A stretch of 64,000 bases of DNA, from contig JAKQLF010000243.1 of the NCBI GenBank assembly GCA_029567325.1, forward strand, positions 1 to 64,000, given 5' to 3'. Source of the DNA: Bacteroidota bacterium (GTDB taxonomy: Bacteria; Bacteroidota; Bacteroidia; Chitinophagales; Saprospiraceae). Shown here in pieces: positions 26,399 to 57,589 of this stretch; position 1 is the first letter of the stretch, and each line of letters starts with the position of its first letter. A program made the position numbers and the translations under genes. The notes below the pieces were generated by a model, which saw only the letters and a program-made list of their open reading frames with translations, was not told the DNA's origin and made no database searches.

Positions 26399-26434
26399 AT
26401 CAAAGGGCTTTTCTCATAGAAGAGCCCTTTTTTG
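26399..26434 (+). terminator. Terminator of the rpmB-rpmG-DUF4295 operon
   Basis: AAAGGGCTTTTC pairs with GAAGAGCCCTTT (12 pairs, one G-T, 5-base loop) and T residues follow. Confidence 0.9.
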
Positions 26435-26487
26435 CATTTATACCCTCTAACATTTGTATTTTTACCATTCAACATTACCAATAATCA

Positions 26488-55962: not shown

Positions 55963-56153
55963 CAGCCAAAACTATCAAATAAATGTCAATTTTGGCTGCA
56001 TATATTACATTTAGCAGCCAAAACTATTAAAATACTGTCAATTTTGGCTGTAAAAATATATTTATATAGCCAAAACTATAACTAATTGATTGGTTTTGGC
56101 TGCAAATATTGCTTTTATCAGCCAAAACATATACTTTTGCATTAAATTGGCTG
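55963..56153 (+). repeat. Array of four 36-bp inverted-repeat units, period about 52 bp
   Basis: Units at 55963-55998, 56015-56050, 56067-56102 and 56119-56153 each begin (C/T)AGCCAAAAC and end TTGGCTG, so every unit is a dyad with an AT-rich, variable middle. The gaps between units are 16-17 bases of unrelated AT-rich sequence. The fourth unit contains the -7 box of the ATPase gene, and its right arm lies between the box and the start codon. Two turns of helix per gap and five per period suit cooperative binding of a regulator. This is not CRISPR: the spacers are too short and the repeats too divergent. Confidence 0.85.
56109..56139 (+). promoter_or_regulatory. Promoter of the ATPase gene (TTG-N20-TACTTTTG), inside the repeat array
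   Basis: TTG at 56109 and TACTTTTG at 56132 are 20 bases apart. The -7 box falls inside the fourth repeat unit, so anything bound to the array would block or help polymerase. Confidence 0.65.
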
Positions 56154-56155
56154 TG

Positions 56156-57589
56156 ATGAAAAGTAAAAGATTGGTTTACGGGCGACAAAGAGAAATTTCG
56201 AAACTGGAAGAGATTGTCAAAAGTGAAAAATCTGAATTCGTTGCTATATATGGCAGAAGACGGGTAGGCAAAACGTTTCTCATCAAAGAGTATTTTGATT
56301 ACACATTTGATTTCCACATTACTGGCTTGGCAAATGCAGACACCGGTCAACAGCTATTCAACTTTGATACAACCATCAATACGCAATCCAATTTGGTCTT
56401 TAATGAACCCTCTGAAAACTGGTTGATTGCATTTCAAAGGTTGATAGAACATCTTGAATTAAAAAAGGAAGCTGGAAAGAAAATAATATTCATTGACGAG
56501 TTGCCATGGTTTGACACTCGAGCTTCGGACTTTATGATGGCTTTAGAGCATTTTTGGAATGGGTGGGCAACCAATAGAAGAGACATCGTATTGATCGTAT
56601 GTGGGTCAGCTGCCTCTTGGATGATCAATGAACTGATCAACAATACGGGTGGCTTACACAATCGAGTGACTCAAAAAATGAAAATTCAAGCATTTACTTT
56701 AAAAGAAGCCGAGGAAATGCTGAAAGCAAAAAACGAAGCATTTGATCGATATCAAATATTGAAGTTGTATATGGCATTAGGAGGCATACCATATTATTTG
56801 GAGGCCGTGAGACCTGGTTTGAGTGCGACTCAAAACATCCAAGAATTGTGCTTTGACAAATCAGGTTTATTGCGCAACGAGTTTGGCAATCTTTATCGTT
56901 CATTATTCAAAAAACATGAACTTTATGAGCAATTGGTTGAAGCACTTTCCACAAAAATAACGGGCTTAAATCGTAGAGAAATTATTTCCATTTCAAAAAT
57001 GAAATCGGGTGGTACACTTACAAAAATTCTAGGCGATTTAGAGGAAAGCGGATTCATCAGTTCATATCCTGCATACAGCGGAAATCAAAAAGATATGATC
57101 TACCGATTGTCTGACTATTACACCTTTTTCTATTTCAAATTCCTCAAAAAAAATAGCGCTCAAAGCGAAAATTTTTGGATTAACATGGCCGATAGCCCTG
57201 AAGTCAGAGCATGGCAAGGATTCACCTTTGAGCAAGTCTGTCTGGATCATGTATCGCAAATCAAAGTAGCCTTGGGCATTAGTGGTATACAAACTTATGA
57301 AGCGTCTTGGAGGGGTAAATCTGATGATAGATCGGCACAAATTGATTTATTGATAGACAGAAAAGATCAAGTAATCAATCTTTGCGAATGCAAGTTTTCA
57401 TTGGGAAATTATACCATCACTAAGGAATATTCAGAAAAAATCAAATCCAAAATAACAACCTTCAAAGAGGTTACAAAAACAAAAAAAGCTGTTTTCTTTA
57501 CTATGATTACCACCTATGGGGTCAATCGCAACAATTACTCAGATGTACTGGTCCAGAATGACATCACCATGGATGCACTCTTTGAGTAG
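56156..57589 (+). CDS. AAA-type ATPase with C-terminal DUF234-like PD-(D/E)XK domain
   Basis: 477 residues. The ATPase part has Walker A in IYGRRRVGKTFLIKEYF and Walker B in KIIFIDELPWFD, then a sensor-like VCGSAASWM. A winged-helix segment follows (GLNRREIISISKMKSGGTLTKIL). The C-terminal ~130 residues carry the nuclease-like pattern QIDLLIDRKDQVINLCECKF, i.e. D-x(n)-E-x-K of PD-(D/E)XK enzymes, as in DUF234 proteins. These STAND-like ATPases are common and poorly understood in archaea and Bacteroidota. ATG 56156 gives the family start (RLVYGRQREI). It stands alone, expressed from the repeat array. Confidence 0.88.
   Translation: MKSKRLVYGRQREISKLEEIVKSEKSEFVAIYGRRRVGKTFLIKEYFDYTFDFHITGLANADTGQQLFNFDTTINTQSNLVFNEPSENWLIAFQRLIEHLELKKEAGKKIIFIDELPWFDTRASDFMMALEHFWNGWATNRRDIVLIVCGSAASWMINELINNTGGLHNRVTQKMKIQAFTLKEAEEMLKAKNEAFDRYQILKLYMALGGIPYYLEAVRPGLSATQNIQELCFDKSGLLRNEFGNLYRSLFKKHELYEQLVEALSTKITGLNRREIISISKMKSGGTLTKILGDLEESGFISSYPAYSGNQKDMIYRLSDYYTFFYFKFLKKNSAQSENFWINMADSPEVRAWQGFTFEQVCLDHVSQIKVALGISGIQTYEASWRGKSDDRSAQIDLLIDRKDQVINLCECKFSLGNYTITKEYSEKIKSKITTFKEVTKTKKAVFFTMITTYGVNRNNYSDVLVQNDITMDALFE

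Follow-up and report, generated by a model that had tools for sequence, protein, structure and literature searches.

A phased dyad array at the promoter of a PDC-S27 ATPase with a predicted nuclease domain, and a residue-base code that points to self-recognition

Introduction

The window analysed here is a stretch of 64,000 nucleotides from a Saprospiraceae member of the Bacteroidota (GenBank assembly GCA_029567325.1, contig JAKQLF010000243.1, positions 1 to 64,000 of the forward strand). Near its right end, an array of inverted repeats (dyads) is followed by the gene of an AAA+ ATPase fused to a PD-(D/E)XK-like domain, which belongs to the family PDC-S27. This is a common, little-studied candidate-defence family: about 8,000 detections have been reported in a paper that gives no test of PDC-S27 and according to which validation is pending for most PDCs (PMC12988326). 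Among open-licence papers we found neither an experimental function of PDC-S27 nor an earlier account of a cis-array, self-recognition or a residue-base code for it. Here, we describe the array as a feature of the whole family and present covariation between protein and DNA suggesting that each protein very probably reads the array in front of its own gene.

The locus

The features of the locus are as follows (coordinates in the window; dyads have no strand).

55963..55998, no strand: dyad unit 1, CAGCCAAAAC...TTTTGGCTG
56015..56050, no strand: dyad unit 2
56067..56102, no strand: dyad unit 3, TAGCCAAAAC...GTTTTGGCTG
56119..56153, no strand: dyad unit 4, overlapping the promoter
56132..56139, plus strand: Bacteroidota -7 box TACTTTTG (consensus TAnnTTTG), inside unit 4; the box is enriched across homologs
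56156..57589, plus strand: PDC-S27 protein, 477 amino acids; ATG start assigned by homology
56156..56845, plus strand: AAA+ ATPase domain, residues 1 to ~230; Walker A GRRRVGKT 33-40, Walker B D114 E115
56915..57109, plus strand: winged helix-turn-helix (wHTH), residues 254-318, from the predicted model
57005..57025, plus strand: putative specificity residues S284, T287 and K290 at the start of the recognition helix, from covariation and the model
57089-57091, plus strand: putative specificity residue K312 in the wing, from covariation and the model
57173..57586, plus strand: PD-(D/E)XK-like domain, residues 340-477, with E359, D397, E411 and K413

The four dyads span 55963-56153 at a pitch of exactly 52 bp and end 2 bp short of the ATG at 56156; an alternative TTG start at 56090 falls inside the array. 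Their arms follow the pattern of unit 1, with unit 3 opening with T and the right arm of unit 4 being shorter, and the half-sites switch orientation every 24-28 bp. A preliminary description of this DNA had noted the four dyads at a pitch of about 52 bp and the -7 box in the last unit, both of which are confirmed. Tandem Repeats Finder reports the array as one of just two tandem arrays in the window, the other being a repeat of period 22 and 2.1 copies at 26431-26476.

The dyad is rare elsewhere in the genome. In all 5.8 Mb, AGCCAAAA-N11-20-TTTTGGCT occurs at six places, three in the window array, two in the array of the paralog L006 and one in an unrelated coding sequence, and a reversed control of the pattern gave zero matches. 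The orphan dyad in coding sequence, at C332, was taken as chance. The dyad of paralog L005 is confined to its own array, and that of L004 to its array and one gene-less relic.

The protein matches PDC-S27 (PADLOC-DB PDLC04984) in PADLOC with 652 bits over residues 7-476 of 477. In Pfam it matches ATPase_2 (PF01637) and other AAA models with no match to DUF234, the assignment made in the preliminary description. The Walker A/B motifs, the winged helix and the E..D..ExK nuclease pattern named there are all present, and they are supported by an AlphaFold model built with 94 homologs (mean predicted local distance difference test score, pLDDT, 94.6; predicted template modelling score, pTM, 0.91). 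In the model, the AAA+ domain has the expected order of helices and strands, the winged helix consists of helices 254-264, 273-280 and 286-297 with wing strands 301-305 and 314-318, and a C-terminal alpha/beta domain bears E359, D397, E411 and K413 in PD-(D/E)XK order. The active sites are intact in nearly all members compared: among 285 homologs, Walker residues K39, D114, E115 and R170 are invariant, and E359, D397, E411 and K413 are kept in 281, 283, 285 and 284, respectively (at least 98.6%). A PDB sequence search with the protein found nothing; the closest solved fold is the Pyrococcus abyssi ATPase PABY2304 (PDB 2qen; TM-score 0.48 by query length, 18% identity), followed by archaeal Orc1/Cdc6.

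The array as a feature of the family

The array is a family-wide feature that extends beyond the window locus. The same genome holds ten full-length copies of the gene, the other nine being 38-46% identical to that of the window, and all ten have upstream dyads, although just two, about 146 bp apart, were seen at L008. The half-sites differ among these paralogs (GCCAAA types, CGCTCAAA, TTACAAAG, GGAAAATAC, CAGCTGAAAG and others). Across 189 homologs, the self-similarity of the 340 bp upstream of the gene peaks at a lag of 53 (25.2 per 1000), with harmonics at 106 and 159, as against at most ~1.3 per 1000 at lags 51-55 in downstream or coding sequence. Of 189 upstream regions, 104 contain a chain of at least four alternating half-sites, compared with 1 of 183 downstream regions and 20 of 945 shuffles, and a second detector found dyads at a pitch of 51-55 bp upstream of 63% of the homologs, compared with 2.2% downstream and 1.6% in shuffles. 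The commonest form has two dyads adjoining the start codon; arrays reach five dyads, so the four of the window stand near the long end. In the related family PDC-S01, 0 of 28 members have arrays of 51-55 bp pitch. At one locus (L107, G014:C3:1-8003), three family members lie within 7 kb, one of them inverted, each with its own upstream region.

The preliminary description had named three observations that would speak against it: homologs lacking arrays, an array at an unrelated gene, and a protein with neither binding to the repeats nor conserved nuclease residues. Most homologs carry arrays, no array was found at an unrelated gene in the genome searches with the dyads of the window, L004 and L005 (one relic has no gene at all), and the nuclease residues are kept across the 285 homologs.

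A residue-base code

When the half-sites are aligned, they share a common scaffold, A(G/C)(T/A)T(T/A)[5][6]GC[9][10][11]..TAT, in which the bracketed bases are the most variable. The mutual information between the half-site bases and every column of the protein alignment was computed, and residue 284 ranks first, with Z=30 for position 6 and Z=16 for position 5. Other leading pairs join residues 287 and 290 to position 9 and residue 312 to position 4. In the model, the recognition helix contains 287 and 290 and is immediately preceded by 284, and 312 falls in the loop of the wing. Two strong signals come from outside the wHTH, W385 of the nuclease domain with position 2 and A138 with position 7, and these may be lineage effects.

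The pairs can be written as simple rules. At position 6, S or T at residue 284 goes with G, N with A, and D or E with C; at position 9, 290R pairs with C; at position 4, 312R goes with A and 312K with T. Amino acids have usual base preferences, Asn for A, Arg for G on the opposite strand and Asp/Glu for C, and the rules agree with these. The window protein (S284, T287, K290, K312), with its half-site GTTTTGGCTG, obeys all of them.

Shared descent was considered with a tree from which the wHTH had been left out. On 17 of its branches, residue 284 changes along with position 6, where 4.6 such co-changes would be expected (p=6e-9), and no other protein column comes near residue 284 in co-change with position 6; for positions 9 and 10, certain columns that are not part of the wHTH match 287 and 290 in this score. 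In a held-out test on newly fetched genes with arrays, in which the register was fixed from the constant positions alone, the residue-284 rule was right in 35 of 39 scorable cases, where chance would give about one third. The independent support is nearer 29 of 33, because six T-to-G cases are close relatives in one genus.

Since residues of the wHTH covary with the bases of the half-site, the protein very probably reads its own array, and the earlier proposal of such binding is strongly supported by this covariation. That a separate host regulator binds the array, rather than the ATPase, is compatible with location by itself, but the half-sites vary between paralogs of the same genome and follow the recognition residues in the wHTH encoded next to them, so this alternative seems very improbable. 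The array would thus reveal the DNA bound by each protein and the code would predict it from sequence, and binding, autoregulation and specificity swaps are therefore open to simple testing throughout the family. The code may be viewed as a natural, evolvable DNA-recognition alphabet within an AAA+ protein.

Spread between genomes

The family is patchily distributed. Matches were found in 23 of 61 genomes of the taxonomic family, with up to 23 matches per genome, many of them fragments; in 69 of 199 genomes of a larger draw; and, phylum-wide at a strict threshold, in 21 of 396. In genus g130 (L246, L249-L259, L261), unlike elsewhere, many genomes carry one closely similar copy, which is perhaps domesticated. 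The family is rarely present in phage and viral-contig records, and 138 plasmid records have relatives, just four with an identity close to 40% or higher.

Array and gene have spread together between genomes. In most of 26 close pairs, DNA similarity sets in at about the array and ends close to the stop codon, with unrelated flanks on either side; one pair is syntenic. Within-genome identity reaches a maximum of 66% in 687 pairs, with no recent near-identical copies among them, and the nearest relative lies in the same genome in just 6 of 139 cases; the copies have therefore been gained between genomes and not by recent local duplication. A gene-less relic array (L358:2221-2417, on G000:C269, beside an htpG-like gene) is 84% identical to the L004 array over 197 bp, and no remnant of an ATPase gene was found adjoining it. 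Apparent homology in its 3' flank was tried as part of the unit and set aside, as this sequence is one of the 65 hits of an interspersed repeat found across the genome. At L004:2920-3165, an interspersed short-repeat family of TTCACATTTCACATT / ACCATTCACTATTT types was noted, with 65 matches in the genome.

The high copy number with its many fragments, the span of similarity in close pairs and the relic elsewhere in the genome would all suit a mobile or selfish element, in which the array serves as a recognition end of a unit, array plus gene, that the AAA+ nuclease mobilises or duplicates. However, neither terminal repeats nor target-site duplications were seen at the borders compared in the close pairs, which are diverged; the within-genome identities and foreign nearest relatives given above also argue against it; the sharp borders may mark only a loss of similarity in non-coding DNA; and promoter position accounts for the array without mobility. 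We consider a mobile element unlikely, and the selfish or copy-number element of the preliminary description lacks an active-transposon signature. A search for empty sites in 31 relatives, made through the downstream neighbour, gave no usable one, as the upstream gene was adjacent in 0 of 9 loci checked. Within genomes, avoidance of identical half-sites, which would hint at incompatibility, gave no clear signal.

Regulation and a proposed mechanism

A TAnnTTTG box lies within the last 110 bp upstream in 65% of homologs compared with 11% of shuffles, and in 48 of 68 genes having both box and array it starts ahead of the end of the last half-site. Given cognate binding, autoregulation is the simplest reading, and a likely one because the promoter box usually sits inside the array; the self-regulating module of the preliminary description is strongly supported by this placement together with the covariation.

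The best explanation, to which we give a probability of about 0.7, is that the unit is an AAA+ nuclease module which recognises its own array and regulates its own gene. Through its winged helix, the protein would bind half-sites of alternating orientation every ~26 bp, and its dimers would lie on one face of the DNA, as 53 bp is about five helical turns. Neighbouring dimers would probably touch to form a phased oligomer, and the bound protein would cover the promoter and control its own gene, most likely by repression rather than activation, since the array overlaps the promoter. The half-site of each copy would be determined chiefly by some four residues (284, 287, 290 and 312), and since every copy comes with a half-site of its own, most copies within a genome would read different sites. 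In the most speculative step, the ATPase-gated nuclease would be an effector, antiphage for example, induced or released upon a change in array occupancy.

Several points weigh against this explanation. Some 37% of the homologs do not pass the test for a 51-55 bp pitch, and among these are cases with a single dyad or different spacings; the rules for 287 and 290 are weaker among the held-out genes, and D284 at times pairs with A; up to five dyads are more than a simple repressor needs. For the effector step, nothing was found tying the predicted nuclease to phage, and the genes around some 80 homologs have mostly housekeeping roles, on which ground a defence-island context was set aside. For the window protein, 'defence' is the label of a candidate family only. 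With this label alone and such neighbours, the self-recognising nuclease is ranked first and antiphage action would be a plausible output. Overall, the interpretation in the preliminary description is partly supported.

A bolder version can be offered tentatively, at odds well short of even: a self-addressed module of a new kind, in which recognition helix and promoter array co-diversify by a near-digital code, array and gene spread together between genomes, many copies of differing specificity accumulate, and the phased oligomer would act as a sensor gating the nuclease, with titration or displacement of the oligomer by phage or plasmid DNA as one conceivable trigger.

Wider relatives

More distant relatives have palindromes of other geometry right before the start codon, either GTAAC-N5-GTTAC in tandem or AATCACGATT twice, an indication that self-operators are widespread among ATPases of this superfamily. 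Short tandem palindromes before the start codon (GTAAC-N5-GTTAC or GAAATGNNNATTTCG, ~15 bp pitch) are seen in the PDLC04985 group (L011, L033, L115, L120, L395), and distant relatives on viral contigs (L233, L238, L239) have two AATC-N2-GATT palindromes directly 5' of the start codon. Inverted repeats of another geometry precede the start codon in PDC-S01 (L361, L365, L368, L376), for example TTTGTTRTGTATANNTAACAAAA repeated at L361; PDC-S01 may also be self-regulated.

Comparison with known systems

The window protein resembles PDC-S27 in its full-length profile match and in the fusion of an ATPase to a PD-(D/E)XK domain (PMC12988326). Its likeness to PABY2304 is one of fold and says nothing on arrays.

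Haloarchaeal origins depend on co-located cdc6 genes (PMC3528665, PMC3936714), and in both settings an AAA+/winged-helix gene lies next to cognate inverted boxes of its own, and a genome has several such pairs with differing specificities. Together with Orc1/Cdc6 on origin DNA among the closest solved folds and relatives on some plasmids, this could suggest an initiator-like element, whose protein and array, akin to archaeal orc/cdc6 with its cognate origin, would load replication factors or secure maintenance. The likeness is in layout only, however: here the hosts are Bacteroidota, the boxes overlap a promoter, a scan of GC skew showed no origin-like change or inversion at the array, the window copy is flanked by chromosomal genes, a chromosome with ten to twenty origin-like copies would be unusual, and the conserved nuclease domain would be left unexplained. 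An initiator is thus quite improbable.

The proposed self-recognising module also shares features with two classes of regulators. Autoregulated transcription factors, such as those of the LacI family, have self-operators at their own promoters, and these operators co-evolve with the recognition helix; residue-base covariation and self-operators at the own promoter are found here too. Unlike in the LacI type, the putative regulator here is an AAA+ protein and predicted nuclease, its sites form a phased 53-bp array, and the three dyads tested in the window's own genome (those of the window, L004 and L005) are confined to arrays of the family, apart from one gene-less relic and one match in coding sequence. 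STAND regulators of the MalT type are ATP-dependent and bind at the promoter to multiple helically phased sites; the PDC-S27 module differs from them in that its regulator would be a predicted nuclease and the array targets found are its own only.
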